This document shows, one piece after another, positions 20,162 through 40,588 of a DNA stretch of 40,588 bases (its first letter is position 1; each line of letters opens with the position of its first letter). Origin of the DNA: a virus. The stretch is from positions 1 to 40,588 of IMG/VR virus record IMGVR_UViG_3300030104_002699; one strand, 5' to 3'. Below the pieces are notes generated by a model that ran no database searches, was not told where the DNA came from, and saw only the letters and a program-made list of their open reading frames with translations. The position numbers and the translations under genes are program-made.

Positions 20162-20755
20162 GTGACAACCGCATCAGACAAAATCGTTTTACGCCACACT
20201 GAAACTCTCAAACCATACGAAAACAATCCAAGGCAACATTCAGAAGCACAGCTTGATCGTCTTGTCCGATCAATTAAGGAGTTTGGTTTTACAAATCCAA
20301 TCCTGATTGACGATGACTGCAATGTGATCGCAGGTCATGGTCGTTTGTTGGCTGCTGAATTGATGGGTTTGCCTAGGGTTCCGACCATCACTCTTGGCCA
20401 CCTTACAGCTGATCAGCGTCGTGCCTACGTCATTGCTGACAACCAACTGGCACTCAACAGCACTTGGGATGACGACGTGCTGCAGTCAGAACTTCAAGCC
20501 CTAGGTGAAGCTGGCTATGACCTGACCCTTTTGGGTTGGGGTGATGACCTTCCTACTTTTGGTGAGGATATTGACCTGTCGGCTTTAGACGACTTGGAAG
20601 ATGACCCAACTGCAGAGCTGGCTGATGGCGTCATGAAGGCCATTCAGATTGAGTTCCGACCTGAAGACTATGAAGAAGCCAAGGCATTGGTGGATGCAGC
20701 CCGCAAACGTGGCGACTACGTGGGCATGAAGCTGATTGAGGCTTTAGCTGTTTGA
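20162..20755 (+). CDS. ParB/Srx-like domain protein, 197 aa
   Basis: The GTG start is used. The ParB-like core is clear: LKPYENNPRQH, then LDRLVRSIKEFGFTNPILID, and the nucleotide-binding/catalytic AGHGRLLAAELMGL, followed by TADQRRAYVIADNQLA. A C-terminal acidic linker and a small helical domain follow (EDYEEAKALVDAARKRGDY). ParB-like proteins of this type often neighbour DNA modification genes in phages. The stop overlaps the glycosyltransferase start (TGATG), so it is part of a three-gene modification cassette. Biochemical role (nuclease, CTPase or DNA-binding) is not settled by sequence. Confidence 0.85.
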   Translation: MTTASDKIVLRHTETLKPYENNPRQHSEAQLDRLVRSIKEFGFTNPILIDDDCNVIAGHGRLLAAELMGLPRVPTITLGHLTADQRRAYVIADNQLALNSTWDDDVLQSELQALGEAGYDLTLLGWGDDLPTFGEDIDLSALDDLEDDPTAELADGVMKAIQIEFRPEDYEEAKALVDAARKRGDYVGMKLIEALAV

Positions 20756-21495
20756 TGCACGTTGCAATCCCCACCAAGGGCAGGCCGTCCACAACCACTT
20801 GCAAGCTCCTTGGTGACATTCCTTTCACCCACTTTGTAGAGCCTCAGGACATGGCTGCTTACAAGGCGGCTGGCGTGCCCAATCTCCAGGTCATTCCCGA
20901 CAACGATAAGGGCATCACCTTTGTTCGGAACTACATCCTTGATTGGGGCCATGTTCAAGGCCACAAGTGGTTGTGGATCATGGATGATGACGTCAGTGGG
21001 TTTGGCGTTGCCAAGGCGGGCAAAACCATCAAGGGCGATCACAACGTCCTTAAGCAGTTTCATGAAGCTGTTGAGCAGTTCAAGTTCCCCGTCAACGGCC
21101 TGAACTACTGCCAATACGCTTGGTCCTACAGCACCAAGAAGCAACGGTTCGCCATCAATAAGCGACCGCCTGAAGTTTGTGCCCTGCTCTATCTCCCAAA
21201 AATCCATTGGCGTTACCGCCCTGACCGCAAGGAAGATCGTGACTTCACGATGCTTGCCATCAAGCACTCAGATGGCGTCATCGTTGATTTGCATGCGTGG
21301 TTCAACTGTCCAGGCGTTGGCACCAATGCAGGCGGCTTGCAGCACCTTTATCAACAAAAGCGTGATGCCGTATGGGCCCAACGCTTGGTCAGTGACTGGG
21401 CTCCCTTTGCCAAGCTCATCAAAAAAAAGGACCGGGTAGACGCAAAGCTCGACATCTCTGGTTACGCCAAACACATGAAGCGCATTGTTCGATGA
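20755..21495 (+). CDS. TET-associated glycosyltransferase (TAGT-like), 246 aa
   Basis: The ATG at 20755 is coupled to the ParB-like stop. It starts with the nucleotide-sugar strand HVAIPTKGRPSTT and has the GT-A metal motif Asp77-Asp79 in WIMDDDVSGFG, then conserved-looking segments (YAWSYSTKK, EDRDFTMLAIKHSDG, FNCPGVGTNAGGL). This matches the family known from computational work (Iyer, Aravind and colleagues) as glycosyltransferases paired with TET/JBP oxygenases in phages. It would add a sugar to hydroxymethyl bases in phage DNA. Its stop overlaps the dioxygenase start by 4 bases. Confidence 0.82.
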   Translation: MHVAIPTKGRPSTTTCKLLGDIPFTHFVEPQDMAAYKAAGVPNLQVIPDNDKGITFVRNYILDWGHVQGHKWLWIMDDDVSGFGVAKAGKTIKGDHNVLKQFHEAVEQFKFPVNGLNYCQYAWSYSTKKQRFAINKRPPEVCALLYLPKIHWRYRPDRKEDRDFTMLAIKHSDGVIVDLHAWFNCPGVGTNAGGLQHLYQQKRDAVWAQRLVSDWAPFAKLIKKKDRVDAKLDISGYAKHMKRIVR

Positions 21496-22301
21496 AGCCT
21501 TTACCTCTTCCAGTTCTCACCCTGCACAGGAAGACGCCCAATCTCAAGATTGGGGACACCTGCCCAACGCTGCAGCCCAACGTCACAGAGTCCTGCATCC
21601 TTGCTGATCCTGACGGCACTCAGGTCGGCCTGTTCCTCAAGCAACTGCCTGATGACTTGAGGAATCTGGTCAACATTGCTGACCACGAGGTCAACTCAAC
21701 CAGGGTGCCCAAAACGATGATGGACCGTAAGCGTCCATTGCCACCCGGGCCTGACGGGAAGAAGCGTTATTTAGTCATCTCGCAGTACTCAGCCATCCTT
21801 GGCAGCGTGCCGCCAAAGCCACATATGCGACGGGCATATGGCTCACGATCTTCTGTCCACAGCAGCAAGACATCAGGGACCTTTGTCAAAGCTATGCACA
21901 AAACAGGCATCATCGCCTACCAACTGATTCAAGAACTTGCTCCTGACGTTGCTAAATTGCATAGCGCCAAGGTGCAAGCGCGTGTGCCTGACAAATGGCG
22001 TTTCGCCAAACATTTCAGCAGCACGATCAGCAACTGCAATATCTCAGCACCTATTCACCAAGATCACGCCAACGTTAAAGGCGCTGTCAACATCATCATC
22101 ACCAAGCGCCGCAACAGCACTGGCGGGAACTTGCACGTTCCTGACTATGACGCCACTTTTGACCAAACAGATGGTTCGATGCTTGTCTATCCAGCATGGA
22201 GGAACTGCCATGGTGTAACGCCAATAGTTCCCACACACCAAGGCGGTTACCGGAACTCACATGTCTGGTACGCCTTGGATTCGTTTGCATCGTTAGGCTG
22301 A
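21492..22301 (+). CDS. TET/JBP-type 2-oxoglutarate, Fe(II)-dependent DNA dioxygenase, 269 aa
   Basis: The double-stranded beta-helix residues are present and in order: His189 and Asp191 in PIHQDHANVKGAVNII, distal His240 in RNCHGVTPI, and Arg254 in GGYRNSHVWYAL for 2-oxoglutarate. The N-terminal 180 residues include the helical segment GTFVKAMHKTGIIAYQLIQEL. TET/JBP enzymes hydroxylate the methyl group of 5-methylcytosine or thymine. With the coupled glycosyltransferase this would give a glycosylated hydroxymethyl base. No DNA methyltransferase gene is present in the genome, so the substrate is open: thymine (as in JBP) or host-made 5-methylcytosine. It ends 4 bases before terminase small subunit. 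Confidence 0.82.
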   Translation: MKPLPLPVLTLHRKTPNLKIGDTCPTLQPNVTESCILADPDGTQVGLFLKQLPDDLRNLVNIADHEVNSTRVPKTMMDRKRPLPPGPDGKKRYLVISQYSAILGSVPPKPHMRRAYGSRSSVHSSKTSGTFVKAMHKTGIIAYQLIQELAPDVAKLHSAKVQARVPDKWRFAKHFSSTISNCNISAPIHQDHANVKGAVNIIITKRRNSTGGNLHVPDYDATFDQTDGSMLVYPAWRNCHGVTPIVPTHQGGYRNSHVWYALDSFASLG

Positions 22302-22305
22302 AACC

Positions 22306-22632
22306 ATGGACAAAAACGGACGCTGCACAAAAGCCGAAAAGCAATTCCGGACAGCAAGGTTTGCCCGGATGATTGCCAATGGGGCAACACGTTCGGACCT
22401 TTTGCAATACGCCGCAAGCGAATGGGGGTTGAAGCAAAGGCAAAGTGATGAATATATTGCCCTAGCCACAAAGCGGCTTGAGGAAGATTTCAACCTAGAT
22501 CGCCAAGCTTTTGCCGCAATACTTTTGTCCCAATTGAACGTTGTCCACAAGAAAGGCATGGAGCAGTCCAATCTCCAAGCTGTGTTGGGCTGCATCAACA
22601 CCGCTGCCAAAATCGCCAAGCTGTATGACTAA
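22306..22632 (+). CDS. terS: Terminase small subunit
   Basis: The 108-aa helical protein has a helix-turn-helix-like N-terminal half (KQFRTARFARMIANGATRSDLLQYAASEWGLKQRQSDEYI) and a C-terminal helix (LQAVLGCINTAAKIAKLY), usual for small terminases that recognise the packaging site. Its TAA overlaps the large subunit start (TAATG). It follows the base modification genes by 4 bases, so packaging and modification are probably co-expressed. Confidence 0.82.
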   Translation: MDKNGRCTKAEKQFRTARFARMIANGATRSDLLQYAASEWGLKQRQSDEYIALATKRLEEDFNLDRQAFAAILLSQLNVVHKKGMEQSNLQAVLGCINTAAKIAKLYD

Positions 22633-23981
22633 TGGGTGTTTTGTCCACGATTGCGAGCGGCAACATCCTTCAACGTCTTGGAGCTGAAGACAGCCAAATT
22701 GATGTTCAAAAGCTGTTGCAGCAGGTGAAAACAGACCTGCATCCGGGCCAACTTGCTTTTGTCGAGGATGAACAAACTGAGATCATTGGTTTATCTGCTG
22801 GCTATGGGGCTGGGAAAACCCGTGCGTTAGCAGCAAAAGCTTTGCACCTTGCAGCAGCAAACCAAGGGTTCATTGGTTGCGTGATGGAGCCAACCGGTCC
22901 TTTGGTGCGGGATATCTGGCAAAATGACTTTGAAGGGTTCCTCGAGGCGTATGAAGTGCCTTACACCCACAGGGCTTCACCGCTGCCTGAGTACACCTTG
23001 CATTTGCCAGGCGGTGATACAAAAATTCTGTGTCGTAGTTTTGAAAATTGGTCAAGAATTATTGGCTTGAACTTGGCTTTTGTCCTTGCTGATGAGATTG
23101 ACACTGTCAACCCAAGTGTTTGCTCAAGAGCATTCCCAAAAATTCTTGGTCGTTTGCGTTCAGGCAACGTTAGGCAGTTTGCAGCGGCATCAACCCCTGA
23201 AGGCTTTCGTTGGATGTGGCAAACCTTTGGCACAGATGAGGCGAAACAACGCAATGACCGTAAATTGATTAGGATGCGTTCGGCAGACAATCCCCATCTG
23301 CCTCAAGACTTCATTGAAAGGCTGCAAGCCAACTATGACCCAAGCCTGTTGCAGGCTTACTTAGAAGGTCATTTTTGCAACCTTACAACTGGTCAGGTTT
23401 ATGACCGGTTTGACAGAGCAAAGCACGTCACAACCGATATTCCAGATGTCAGCGACGAACCTTTAAGAATCGGAGTTGACTTTAATATCGGCAATATGTC
23501 AGCTGTTATCGGTGTTCGTCTTGAAAACAAACTTTTCCTGATTGATGAGATCAGTGGCGCACATGACACTGATGCCATGGCACAACAAATCCAGCAACGT
23601 GCTGAAGGACGTAAGGTATATGTCTACCCTGACGCATCAGGCGGAAATAGAAGCACGAATGCCAGCAGGACTGACATACAGATCCTAGAGACGTATGGGT
23701 TTAGCAATCAATCACCGAAAGCAAATCCTCCCGTACGTGATCGGGTGGCTTCTGTTCAAGCTTTGCTGGAAAACGGGAAAGGAGAGGTGAGACTGCAAGT
23801 GTCGGCCAACTGCAAGCGAACCATTGAATGCTTGGAGCTGCAGAGTTACACAGAAGCTGGTGACCCAGATAAAGATGCTGGTTACGATCACATGAATGAT
23901 GCGCTTGGTTACTTGATCTATAGAGATTTCTCGATGCTGAATGCGCGTGCTGGTAGAGGCACTGGCATTAGGCTTTACTAA
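22632..23981 (+). CDS. terL: Terminase large subunit
   Basis: A 449-aa packaging motor. Walker A SAGYGAGKT (Lys62), Walker B AFVLADEID (Asp154, Glu155), and the RNase H-like nuclease acids Asp283 in RIGVDFNIG, Asp334 in VYPDASGG and Asp423 in YDHMNDALGYL are all visible. It translocates DNA into the procapsid and cuts concatemers. Length is normal for the family. The gene gives the best anchor for phylogeny and for packaging mode. Confidence 0.96.
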   Translation: MGVLSTIASGNILQRLGAEDSQIDVQKLLQQVKTDLHPGQLAFVEDEQTEIIGLSAGYGAGKTRALAAKALHLAAANQGFIGCVMEPTGPLVRDIWQNDFEGFLEAYEVPYTHRASPLPEYTLHLPGGDTKILCRSFENWSRIIGLNLAFVLADEIDTVNPSVCSRAFPKILGRLRSGNVRQFAAASTPEGFRWMWQTFGTDEAKQRNDRKLIRMRSADNPHLPQDFIERLQANYDPSLLQAYLEGHFCNLTTGQVYDRFDRAKHVTTDIPDVSDEPLRIGVDFNIGNMSAVIGVRLENKLFLIDEISGAHDTDAMAQQIQQRAEGRKVYVYPDASGGNRSTNASRTDIQILETYGFSNQSPKANPPVRDRVASVQALLENGKGEVRLQVSANCKRTIECLELQSYTEAGDPDKDAGYDHMNDALGYLIYRDFSMLNARAGRGTGIRLY

Positions 23982-35907: not shown

Positions 35908-36259
35908 TCTGATTGGAATGCCGTATCGGCTTGGTGCTGACGGCAGTGACGGTCATATTGATTGCATACACCTCTGCTATCAAGCCCTGGAGCGCATGGG
36001 TATTGATGCACCACCGTTTAAGCAGAGCTGGTATCAGGCAAGCAAGTGGGAAGTGTGCCGGGATCTGATGCGGTGGGGTTTGCGAGTTGAAAAGCCTGCG
36101 TATGATGGGGACATTCTGCTGTTGCCGGAAAAATCTTGGACTTTCGCAGTGACATGGCAAACGGGAATTTTGTACGTGCAGCCAAGAACGGAAAAGGTTC
36201 AGTGGTCTTCGGTCCGACTGTTTACGACGTTCCACTGCTTCCGTTCGAGAAACAGTTAA
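35891..36259 (+). CDS. NlpC/P60-like tail-tip protein (K-like), 122 aa
   Basis: The N-terminus has SDLIGMPYRLGADGSDGHIDCIHLCYQAL, the NlpC/P60 nucleophile Asp-Cys motif at about Cys24. The position that normally holds the catalytic histidine (before the FAV strand) reads KSWTFAVTW, with no histidine, so activity may be lost or rely on another residue. Such proteins cut peptidoglycan during DNA entry or act as tail-tip assembly proteases. It overlaps the L-like gene by 17 bases and the J-like gene by 106 bases. Confidence 0.75.
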   Translation: MSDCSDLIGMPYRLGADGSDGHIDCIHLCYQALERMGIDAPPFKQSWYQASKWEVCRDLMRWGLRVEKPAYDGDILLLPEKSWTFAVTWQTGILYVQPRTEKVQWSSVRLFTTFHCFRSRNS

Positions 36260-39200
36260 TTGCGACAATTGGAGTAACTGAGGAGGAATATCAAAGGTTT
36301 ACAGCTGAAGCAAAACGCCGAGGAGTAATAAGGCCAGCAGCGTATGACCATATTCCTGATATTCAGAATGCGATTCTTGGGTCTGGTGCTGCAATTGCTT
36401 CAGCGTATTTAACAACGACCGCAGCAAAAAGCGCGACTACTGTAATCCTTACCAATCTTGCGATTGGTTTAGTTCTTAGTGGTGTCTCTTATCTGCTAAC
36501 GCCAAAACCCAAAATGCCTGGCGCTAAAGGCGGTGGTGTTGTTGATCTTGGCAGTGTTGCAGGAGCAAATCGTTTTACGCCATCACGCGGCTTTGAAACG
36601 ATTGCAGAGCTAGCAGATTATGCCGCGCCTGTTCCCCTTATTTTTGGTCTTTACAAAGACAACATTGGCGGGATGTTGACGACGCCAAAGCTTGTTTGGT
36701 CTCGCATGTTCAGTCATGGAACAATGCAACGAGCCAAGCTGATGTTTGTTGTTGGTGAGCAAGGCGTTGGTAGCGCAGGTATCCAGCCGCCTGACCTCAA
36801 GGGCATTTTTCTTGGCAATAATGCGCTTGATGCTGTATTCAATGATTACTTTGCGTTTTATTGGCGCGCAGACAGCAGCAGCACATTCCGTATCCGTGGA
36901 AGTGACAAAAGGTACGGCACAAGAGGGAAGCCGCATAGGGGCGATCCTGATGCATTAGAAGACAATAATGATGACGCTTTTAATTTTCCGTTGTCTGAAT
37001 ATGACCAGGAGGCTTCAGAAATTTTTTGCCATGCTTACACCCCTTCAAATAGCGCACAATTTGGGGTTTATGGATCGATTGCTAATGGCACAAGCTATCG
37101 AGTCAACTATCAGTTGATTTCAATTCCCAAAAACGACGATGACAGGGCAGTTGCAATAAGGATGCTGGAACGCATCAAAATCGTTGGAGATTCTGGCGTC
37201 GAAATTGATGGCAAAATTTTGCAAGAGGAAGAAGAGGAGGAAGGAGTTAAAGGAGCAGGAAGAATGCCTGGCGACGCTGACAGGGAGCGCTTGATTGAAA
37301 TATATAAGAAAGGAAAACATGACGGCGCAGGCAGAAATTACAGCCCGAGGATGGGAATCATTAAATACACCAAAGAAGCAGACGTTGCCGTAGAAAATGC
37401 TGGCACAGTCACGGGAGAGGATGATGATCAACACAGGCTGCAAATAGCCAGCATTGCCGTAGGCGATCAAGTAGAGTTTTTAATTAGCGACTCTTCAATT
37501 GATCCAGACTTCTATATAAAAAACAAAGCAGGCCAAGGCGCAACTGTTGACGACATCAATTCAACGGTTGAATCGTTTCAAATTGAAGCTGATTCGACAA
37601 TGCAGCTAGGAGAGCATTTTGAAATAGGTGGGTGCATCTGGAAAGTGATCACAAGAAACCGACCAACTTTTGAGCCAGGGAAAAATGATCAGATAATAAC
37701 TCTTGAATGCGTCGACGTTTCAACTTCTATCAATAAAAACATAGGCATTGTGAGCAACTCTTTAGTAGTCACCCCTACTAGTCAATTTATTGGTGATAGT
37801 GGCATTGGCACTAAAAGCAGAGGCATTGGCGAAGCGTTCTTCCCTTTGACTCAAGTGGAGATTGCAACGATTAAAAATAATCGACCAGCGGTTTCGACTG
37901 AAATTGGACTTAAAAGCACCGTGTTTCAGCGATTAAACGGGCTTTGCAATTTTCAAAGCTTGCCTTCGCCGGAAAGTCTTCGTGAGTCAGAAAAAGACAG
38001 AATACAAATGACTAGTGGGACAATTTCAACGAGTGTCTTGCGCTCTTCTATGTTTAGAGTTTTTCTGCGAGACATAAGCCTTGATTCTAAGTTTAATCCG
38101 TTGCCACAAATCTTTGTGGTGCAGGGGGTAAAGCCAACAGCTCAGTACAATTACATTAGGTTTACGCTTGATAGAGCTGTTGAACTGGAGTACAAATTTG
38201 TGCCTGTTTCCGGTTCGGAAATTAAAGATTTAAGCGATGAACAAAAATTTATTGTGCTGTCTCAATTAAATTCAACAGGTCAAGCCGTAGATGGTTCGCA
38301 TGGTTTTTTTGAGTTTGAGGCAGACGTTTCAGATGCGATAGGACTAGTAAGAGTTCATGTTTCTGGCCAGGAGGTTACTGGCCCAGATATTTTTAAACTC
38401 AACAAAGAATTTACCAGAGGACTGACGGAAGTCAAAGGAAACAATATTCCGCTAAAACCAGAAACTGTAGTTTATAGAACAAACAGGCCCGAGCCTGAAT
38501 TTGATACGGTCGTGACAACAAACAGCAAGTTAAAAAGAAAAGAAAACATTGCAAATGACGGAATTACTGAGGCAAAGCTGGCAGCTTTCTTTTATACAAT
38601 TGCAGGAACTGCAGACGTCGAGGGAGTAGCAGTTGGCGAGGAAAGACATTTTGAAAGTGTGGAATACATTAATGGATCTAAAAAAAACTGGCTTCATGTA
38701 AAATGGCGTTTGGAAAAAATTAAGCTTACTGAGGCACTACTGGAGTGGGTAGACGGCCAAAATCATTTCTGGAGATTTCCGCAAGATGCTGACAGCGATT
38801 CTAAAGGCGACAAAATAACAGTTTTAGGAAGTGGCGGAGGCTTCTACGGTGGTCAAGAAATAGAAATAAAAAGAGGCAGCCAAGCAACAAATGTCATCAG
38901 TGGTCAAGCCGCTTATCCAAGCACGAATCCTTTTGTTAACAATCATCCTGACAGCACAAAGCCTGATGACGAAAATCCTGTAGATTTATTATTCTCAGGG
39001 TGTGTATTTTCAGTCAAAAACGTAACCGAAAACGTAATACTAGGTGATAGAAATCAGGCTTGGCGATATGAGGTGTTTGGGAGCACTGACGGTTTTGAGC
39101 CTGGAGACTCAGATCCCAATGATGAAAACGCCAACTTTGACGGAGACTTAAGCGATGAAGTAGTGATGCCAGCAGTCACCAAGGATGGTAAGTCGATTAA

Positions 39201-40588
39201 AGTCAGCCTAAAGGCTCATTGCAAAGAGTTTTTGACGCCTGGCAAAGATCCGCGCCCAATCGTTGGCCAGTATAAGGGTTGGGGAAATCCCATAGTAACA
39301 ATTATTGATGACGCAGATACCACAACAGGTTGGGAGGTAGGCGAACAATTTGGCATATTTAGAAGACCCTCAGCAGGCAATCCATTCCAGACAGTTTATG
39401 ATCGTATTGGGCAAATATTTGAAATTACAAAAGTTAAAATTCAAGAAGCTGAAATCGTTAGAGATGCTGAATTGTTTTTTGCCGAGCAAACGCAAGTTTC
39501 AGATATTAGTTTCTACCGTAGTTTTGTCGATAAATCAAACAGCACGTCTCCTGAGCATGAAATTGTGTACGTAAATGAGGCGCAACTTAACGACAGCCCA
39601 GCCAATATGTTTGAGTTGACCATCGCTGGTCTTTCCTTAAAAGCAAGCCGCAACTTCACTGCGCTTGATCAGATGCGCTGCTGGCTCGGTAGCGGATTGC
39701 CTGTGGAACGTTTGCATCCGAAGCTAGGGACTGCCTATGTAAATACAGTTGCCACAGCACTTGTCGCTGGAACTGTCTATCAAATTGTCACCGTAGGCAC
39801 TTCTGACTTTACGTTGGCTGGAGCGGCATCAAATACAGAAGGAACTGTTTTCACCGCCACAGAGGCTGCTACAGGAACCGGAACAGTTGTTTCGACGATC
39901 GGGCCAAGCAATCTGTTTACTGACCTTGTTTACTTCTTGTTGACAGATCAGCGAGCTGGCGCCGGTGGATTGCTTGGTATGGACAGAGACAATGATTACT
40001 TAGTAGACAAGAATGATCTAGTGGAGACGTCCAAATTTCTAGTTACTCAGAAATTGTTTTTTAACGGTCCAATCGTTGAACGCACCAACCTCAGACAATT
40101 CATCAGCGACACCGCTCCATATTTCTTGTGCAATTTTATTATTTCTGATGGCAAGTTTTCCCTTAAGCCCGCCGTTCCAGTCAATGACGATGGCACTATA
40201 AAAAGTGGTTTACCAGAGAATCCACAGGCTGTTCAGGTTGACCAGTTATTTACGTCAGGGAATATAATAGAAGACTCTTACAAATTAGAGTACCTTGGAG
40301 CGGAAGAGAGGCGAGCGTTCAAGGCTGTTGTGCGTTACAGGCAAGAGCGCAAGAACAAATTACCTGAGGAGCAAGTTGTTGAAGTAAGAAATGTAGACGG
40401 CACCGGCGACTTTGATTCTCTTGGTGTAAGTTCTCCGCCCACAGAGCAGTTTGATTTAACTCAATTCTGCACGTCTGAAGATCATGCTGTTAAGGTTGCT
40501 AAGTATTTCTTGGCTCTTCGGGCCTACGTAACTCACACAATTAGTTTTTCGACTACAGCCGAAGGGTTAAGCATTCAAGCTGGGTCTT
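36154..40588 (+). CDS. Tail-tip / central tail hub protein (J-like), N-terminal part, runs off the window
   Basis: From the ATG at 36154 the frame stays open to the last base (1478 codons); I read through it and saw no stop. The N-terminus has FEKQLIATIGVTEEEYQRFTAE and PAAYDHIPDI, then a hydrophobic stretch (residues about 72-115), then a long multi-domain body with an RL/YR-rich hub region (FGLYKDNIGGM). The 47-residue module repeated at 2191-2331 is inserted near residues 1201-1247, just before SNLFTDLVYFLLTD. It would form the distal tail hub and host recognition structure. It overlaps the NlpC/P60 gene by 106 bases. In a circular genome it continues into 1-1029. Confidence 0.88.
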   Translation, partial: MANGNFVRAAKNGKGSVVFGPTVYDVPLLPFEKQLIATIGVTEEEYQRFTAEAKRRGVIRPAAYDHIPDIQNAILGSGAAIASAYLTTTAAKSATTVILTNLAIGLVLSGVSYLLTPKPKMPGAKGGGVVDLGSVAGANRFTPSRGFETIAELADYAAPVPLIFGLYKDNIGGMLTTPKLVWSRMFSHGTMQRAKLMFVVGEQGVGSAGIQPPDLKGIFLGNNALDAVFNDYFAFYWRADSSSTFRIRGSDKRYGTRGKPHRGDPDALEDNNDDAFNFPLSEYDQEASEIFCHAYTPSNSAQFGVYGSIANGTSYRVNYQLISIPKNDDDRAVAIRMLERIKIVGDSGVEIDGKILQEEEEEEGVKGAGRMPGDADRERLIEIYKKGKHDGAGRNYSPRMGIIKYTKEADVAVENAGTVTGEDDDQHRLQIASIAVGDQVEFLISDSSIDPDFYIKNKAGQGATVDDINSTVESFQIEADSTMQLGEHFEIGGCIWKVITRNRPTFEPGKNDQIITLECVDVSTSINKNIGIVSNSLVVTPTSQFIGDSGIGTKSRGIGEAFFPLTQVEIATIKNNRPAVSTEIGLKSTVFQRLNGLCNFQSLPSPESLRESEKDRIQMTSGTISTSVLRSSMFRVFLRDISLDSKFNPLPQIFVVQGVKPTAQYNYIRFTLDRAVELEYKFVPVSGSEIKDLSDEQKFIVLSQLNSTGQAVDGSHGFFEFEADVSDAIGLVRVHVSGQEVTGPDIFKLNKEFTRGLTEVKGNNIPLKPETVVYRTNRPEPEFDTVVTTNSKLKRKENIANDGITEAKLAAFFYTIAGTADVEGVAVGEERHFESVEYINGSKKNWLHVKWRLEKIKLTEALLEWVDGQNHFWRFPQDADSDSKGDKITVLGSGGGFYGGQEIEIKRGSQATNVISGQAAYPSTNPFVNNHPDSTKPDDENPVDLLFSGCVFSVKNVTENVILGDRNQAWRYEVFGSTDGFEPGDSDPNDENANFDGDLSDEVVMPAVTKDGKSIKVSLKAHCKEFLTPGKDPRPIVGQYKGWGNPIVTIIDDADTTTGWEVGEQFGIFRRPSAGNPFQTVYDRIGQIFEITKVKIQEAEIVRDAELFFAEQTQVSDISFYRSFVDKSNSTSPEHEIVYVNEAQLNDSPANMFELTIAGLSLKASRNFTALDQMRCWLGSGLPVERLHPKLGTAYVNTVATALVAGTVYQIVTVGTSDFTLAGAASNTEGTVFTATEAATGTGTVVSTIGPSNLFTDLVYFLLTDQRAGAGGLLGMDRDNDYLVDKNDLVETSKFLVTQKLFFNGPIVERTNLRQFISDTAPYFLCNFIISDGKFSLKPAVPVNDDGTIKSGLPENPQAVQVDQLFTSGNIIEDSYKLEYLGAEERRAFKAVVRYRQERKNKLPEEQVVEVRNVDGTGDFDSLGVSSPPTEQFDLTQFCTSEDHAVKVAKYFLALRAYVTHTISFSTTAEGLSIQAGS
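39754..39894 (+). repeat. Inserted domain module, copy B (partner 2191-2331)
   Basis: Gap-free partner of 2191-2331. It encodes VAGTVYQIVTVG, then DFTLAGAA, then TATEAATGTGTVV within the J-like protein, between RLHPKLGTA and PSNLFTDL. The flanks look like a continuous ancestral sequence interrupted by the module. Confidence 0.85.
39922..40588 (+). repeat. Right copy of diverged terminal overlap (partner 1-649)
   Basis: Same content and frame as the left end, with an extra six codons (around 40190-40227, in the segment with VNDDGTIKSGLPENPQ) and scattered mostly silent changes. Copy-specific amino acid changes cluster in residues next to the indel, which may be a variable surface loop. Confidence 0.9.

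Follow-up and report, generated by a model that had tools for sequence, protein, structure and literature searches.

Several described DNA modification systems resemble parts of the locus analyzed here. Phage systems combining a C5-methyltransferase, a TET dioxygenase and a glycosyltransferase have been reported (Burke et al., 2021, via PMC12730594); 5-methylcytosine (5mC) is first made there by the phage C5-methyltransferase, and phage TET enzymes reportedly act on cytosine. In actinophages such as Rhodococcus phage Tonitrus (PMC11955845) and Gordonia phage CaiB (PMC9302106), overlapping ParB-like and TET genes are found in that order upstream of terminase, followed by genes for an amino acid:DNA transferase, a P-loop kinase and a FAD enzyme. 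Tonitrus has no C5-methyltransferase; a possible thymidine-hypermodification system has been described in this phage (PMC11955845). In T-even phages, whose modification is cytosine-based with the hydroxymethyl group made at the nucleotide level and not by TET, glycosyltransferases replace each other at one place (PMC13390438); the T4 beta-glucosyltransferase site is syntenic with a TET-associated glycosyltransferase (TAGT, PF20691) gene of the T6-like Durham phages (PMC13390438; PMC13216743). Finally, the base J pathway of kinetoplastids relies on a JBP hydroxylase and a glucosyltransferase, with thymine hydroxylation followed by glycosylation.

In this study, a 40,588-nucleotide stretch of DNA from a marine cyanobacterial virus (IMG/VR record IMGVR_UViG_3300030104_002699; hereafter the window) was analyzed. 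It encodes, head to tail, a ParB-like protein, a TAGT glycosyltransferase of the same PF20691 family as the T-even enzyme, a TET/JBP dioxygenase, a probable small terminase subunit and the large subunit, with the following features:

20162..20755, plus strand: ParB-like protein with ParB/sulfiredoxin-fold N-terminal domain (PF02195, 27.5 bits; phrog_620, 8e-47)
20755..21495, plus strand: TAGT glycosyltransferase, filling the exchangeable capping slot (PF20691, 8e-13; under purifying selection)
20757..21506, plus strand: exchangeable slot, without DNA similarity to loci L003 or L009 (blastn of the window against both)
20983..20991, plus strand: DDD motif of TAGT at residues 78-80, numbering from TTG 20752 (invariant, 11 homologues)
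21492..22301, plus strand: TET/JBP 2-oxoglutarate/Fe(II) dioxygenase, 269 aa (PF12851, 6.5e-8; phrog_6059, 4e-67)
22056..22064, plus strand: HxD iron-binding motif of TET, H189-Q-D191 (H and D invariant, 41 homologues)
22209..22211, plus strand: H240 of TET, distal iron ligand (invariant)
22251..22253, plus strand: R254 of TET, 2-oxoglutarate-binding arginine (invariant)
22275..22277, plus strand: L262 of TET, at the alignment position of a TET2 and NgTet1 histidine (Leu or Met in 41/41 phage TETs)
22306..22632, plus strand: probable small terminase subunit, 108 aa (by position; phrog_34910, function unknown)
22632..23981, plus strand: large terminase subunit (PF03237, PF17289, phrog_2)

The ORF coordinates bear out the initial annotation of a three-gene cassette, with overlaps of 1 base between the ParB-like and TAGT genes (TGATG) and 4 bases between TAGT and TET (ATGA); the TAGT gene starts at ATG 20755, with an alternative in-frame TTG at 20752. 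Terminase had been placed 4 bases after TET. The gene found there is that of the probable small subunit, named by position since its PHROG is of unknown function, and the large subunit follows. The genome had also been called circular, which its ends do not demonstrate: the last 667 and the first 649 bases (39921-40588 and 1-649) form an inexact end overlap of about 650 bases with 86% identity. The genome looks essentially complete, and two strains may have been joined at its ends during assembly. An ORF at 36136-40587 extends past the right contig end.

The four iron- and 2-oxoglutarate-binding residues proposed initially, His189, Asp191, His240 and Arg254, are exact in the window TET and were invariant in an alignment of 41 divergent TETs. 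The Tet_JBP Pfam score fell narrowly under the curated cut-off (32.4 versus 34.9 bits; E 6.5e-8), a result compatible with a dioxygenase that targets RNA, a free nucleotide or protein instead of DNA bases. However, the 26 best PDB matches of the AlphaFold model (pLDDT 93.6) were all DNA TET/CMD1 enzymes (TET2, CcTet, CMD1 or NgTet1; best E 5e-12), and DNA-modification families are represented among the neighboring genes (PF20691 here, PF18724 in relatives). A profile search of the PDB with the window TET returned TET2 (E 1.2e-3) and NgTet1 (E 0.01). Since both fold and residues agree with the family, the protein is regarded as a divergent member despite the missed threshold. Membership in a non-DNA 2OG-oxygenase family had been considered from the outset; the best structural matches lie in the DNA TET fold family, and a non-DNA target appears highly improbable. 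These results support the assignment of a TET-family DNA dioxygenase with predicted activity on a 5-methylpyrimidine. Values of dN/dS between 0.02 and 0.10 for TET and TAGT indicated strong purifying selection, which together with conservation in at least 80 contigs argues that the cassette is more than a chance arrangement. A DNA-modifying role of the cassette as a whole is very likely.

Close relatives of the cassette TET were detected in 171 IMG/VR stretches, 80 of which were kept. A ParB-like gene was present upstream of TET at every testable locus, meaning those with enough sequence (117/117; 58/58 among close relatives and 59/59 in the distant clade). This count is not circular, because the loci were picked by TET alone, independent of ParB (TET-selected loci); the counts do not represent independent events either, because many contigs are near-copies. 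The ParB_N score of the window protein was 27.5 against a cut-off of 26.3. The ParB-like protein is a constant partner of TET, with a probable role in binding or selecting DNA. Two tandem ParB-like genes precede TET in some distant-clade loci (L093, L095, L135 and others).

The cassette is also carried by the cultured Prochlorococcus phages MED4-117 and MED4-184/P-HS2 (the P-HS2 record, MT490303, agrees with MED4-184 in length and match), whose TETs are 65% identical to that of the window. A gene named "DNA methylase" in MED4-184 and MED4-117 was considered as a methyltransferase and rejected; it is ParB-like, with no methyltransferase domain detected by Pfam, and a PHROG made up of ParB-methyltransferase fusions is the probable origin of the name. 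In L082 (15790-17914), L083 (18662-20786) and PHROG 6059, TET is named queuine tRNA-ribosyltransferase and the ParB-like protein DNA methylase, both of which look like propagated misannotations. If the proposed reading is right, the names of the TET family and its ParB partner would need correction in some records.

The glycosyltransferase assignment was supported by family profile and motif: the PF20691 score was 49.2 bits against a cut-off of 27.5, and the DDD motif noted at the start was invariant among the 11 homologues. The TAGT model, examined for a GT-A fold, was too low in confidence (pLDDT 62.8) to support firm conclusions and gave no structural match under E 0.001; its best matches were nucleotide-sugar enzymes and a GT2-type enzyme. 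In some actinophage-like cassettes, a PIG-L type deacetylase gene was observed after a TAGT-like gene (L087, 8903-9493; also L134 and L089), which hints that the sugar in those cassettes is an N-acetylated amino sugar.

The initial annotation missed that the middle gene is exchangeable. In cyanophages the position between ParB and TET is occupied in the window and 17 other loci by TAGT type 1, in 27 by a second TAGT-profile subfamily (TAGT type 2, as in L003) and in 28 by an FkbM-type methyltransferase (as in P-HS2); in a few loci it is empty, with ParB directly adjoining TET. No BLAST similarity was detected among the three groups of cyanophage slot genes. The exchange is precise to the gene: the window and L009 share 95.2% identity up to where ParB ends and 93.9% from TET codon 6 onward, with no DNA similarity in between by blastn. 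Compared with L003 and L009 together, the flanks of the window slot are 90-95% identical upstream and 94% identical downstream. The same pattern was observed for other slot states in the pairs L036/L035, L045/L039 and L068/L072. On the TET tree, at least seven changes of slot state are needed, where the minimum would be three. The TAGT genes shared by the window and L002 differ with a dS of 0.16 versus 0.46 for the adjacent TETs, which suggests that TAGT moved separately from TET. The FkbM gene also adjoins TET in two distant-clade loci (L090 and L118) with differing gene order, and this supports it as a true member of the cassette.

The cassette might modify DNA as a packaging or regulation mark and not as protection from defence. 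Its position is in keeping with such a mark, as the large terminase gene lies downstream of ParB-TET in 31/31 cyanophage loci and 44/51 distant-clade loci; repeated exchange of the capping enzyme among similar phages is more readily explained by an arms race than by an invariant packaging signal, and we regard the packaging mark as unlikely. The exchange is also the basis for a tentative model, to which we give not quite even weight, in which ParB-TET is a constant thymine-oxidizing pair with a plug-in capping slot for either of two glycosyltransferase subfamilies, an O-methyltransferase or no capping gene, providing one phage group with several DNA coats.

It had been claimed that the genome has no cytosine-5 methyltransferase, and an HMM search of the whole record agreed: no match to PF00145, PF01555 or PF00303 was found in the entire window record. 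Other window ORFs tested had no match to a methyltransferase family in PHROGs or Pfam. Loss of a methyltransferase that relatives retain in the same cassette had been raised as a possibility; PF00145 was absent from all 41 cyanophage-clade records searched, many of them fragments and several near full length (the window and 40 related records, MED4-184 and MED4-117 included), which sets these phages apart from the systems of Burke et al. (2021, via PMC12730594). No PF01555 match was found in 18 records. Hydroxymethylation at the nucleotide level was rejected as a route, there being no PF00303 match among 23 records. FkbM was likewise rejected as the likely maker of 5mC: its match is to PF05050 rather than PF00145, and it is swapped with glycosyltransferases.

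The distant clade differs in this respect. A C5-methyltransferase is present in 10/51 of its records; in five of them (L120, L140, L118, L108 and L135) it is encoded some 1.4-5.5 kb upstream of ParB-TET, so a cytosine route may exist in this clade. The matches in L108 and L118 are partial and close to a contig end. These five relatives, the many small window genes without a family and the C5-methyltransferase of published phage TET systems (via PMC12730594) would agree with a phage enzyme of unrecognized type that makes 5mC or another pyrimidine derivative, that is, a disguised methyltransferase-TET-glycosyltransferase system. Given the 0/41 count in the cyanophage clade, we consider this distinctly unlikely; FkbM, the only recognized methyltransferase of the cassette, cannot supply the substrate for all cassette forms because it is exchanged with glycosyltransferases.

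The initial annotation had left two routes side by side, direct oxidation of thymine as in JBP and use of 5mC made by the host. In the second, TET would oxidize host 5mC and TAGT would glycosylate the resulting 5-hydroxymethylcytosine. The TET family mostly acts on 5mC, and C5-methyltransferases were found in 33/200 Cyanobiaceae genomes (candidate hosts) and, in a second count, in 7/35. Most candidate hosts are thus without one. MED4, the host of the cultured relatives, has no C5-methyltransferase above the cut-off (one 14-bit match lies below), yet its phages keep TET; moreover, if the host methylates few sites, little of the phage DNA would become modified by this route. MED4 was recognized as genome G210 from a published primer, located at C1:1457455 versus position 1,457,449 in PMC7852597. 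Host-made 5mC is accordingly disfavored as the substrate, and we rate it very unlikely, whereas the JBP-like oxidation of thymine is favored.

Three observations favor thymine, none of them proof: the enzymes with which distant TETs are coupled, the scarcity of host 5mC, and a difference in the predicted substrate contacts. The distant TETs (21-28% identical to the window TET) are coupled to PF18724 amino acid:DNA transferases, PF18751 P-loop kinases and FAD enzymes. No PF00303 hydroxymethylase was detected in Tonitrus (L084), Reprobate (L085), L104, L105 or L152, so that TET is the sole recognized source of the hydroxymethyl group in those records. Where TET2 and NgTet1 have a histidine that contacts 5mC (H1904 and H297), each of the 41 aligned phage TETs has Leu or Met; this difference is suggestive only. 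N194 of the window TET is common to TET2 and does not discriminate between substrates, and dinucleotide composition was uninformative on the substrate base. Counting against thymine, the T6 relative of TAGT acts on glucosylated 5-hydroxymethylcytosine (PMC13216743), and the phage TETs of Burke et al. (2021) reportedly target cytosine. On balance, oxidation of thymine to 5-hydroxymethyluracil, followed by capping before packaging, is rather likely.

We infer the thymine substrate, the identity of the cap, the role of ParB, the order of events and the protection from gene content, knowledge of the families and gene neighborhood. The cassette would carry out post-replicative DNA hypermodification. 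TET, with Fe(II) and 2-oxoglutarate, would hydroxylate the 5-methyl group of thymine in replicated phage DNA to yield 5-hydroxymethyluracil, with the ParB-like protein probably binding or selecting the DNA. The slot enzyme would then cap the hydroxyl. In the window, TAGT would add a sugar to give a base-J-like product, and in sister phages the second TAGT subfamily would perhaps add another sugar, while the FkbM-type methyltransferase would give 5-methoxymethyluracil. To our knowledge, the latter does not occur as a natural DNA base. Because terminase is encoded immediately downstream, capping probably precedes packaging. Swapping the slot gene would alter the chemical coat of the DNA and therefore, presumably, its recognition by host nucleases or glycosylases, with escape from restriction or modification-dependent defences as the presumed outcome.

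The proposed logic is that of the base J pathway, but TAGT is a phage family and the window TET has no recognized J-binding domain: its 269 aa are filled by the dioxygenase fold, and PDB profile searches returned no JBP1 J-binding domain. We know of no counterpart in the base J pathway for the ParB partner or the exchangeable cap. The actinophage cassettes share the gene order and differ in a TET only about 25% identical and in carrying a series of further enzymes instead of one exchangeable capping gene; no kinase or amino acid:DNA transferase gene was seen in the window cassette, although both occur with ParB-TET in distant relatives. The initial view of a little-described route therefore holds in part. 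ParB-TET cassettes are common in actinophages and one has already been described (PMC11955845). As far as the literature was checked, three things are new: the existence of a cyanophage form, its occurrence in cultured Prochlorococcus phages under apparently erroneous names, and the replacement of the capping enzyme through one gene. Some of this may already have been foreseen by earlier authors.

If the proposed reading is correct, marine cyanophages would need no methyltransferase to make base-J-like DNA, starting directly from thymine, and the finishing group would be changed by a one-gene swap between near-identical phages. The cassette is present in two cultured phages that infect Prochlorococcus MED4, so the base composition of their DNA is directly measurable. 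The cyanophages would further offer naturally occurring combinations of TETs with various capping enzymes, which are possible tools to write modified DNA, and a route to asking how the DNA chemistry of marine phages follows the defences of their hosts.
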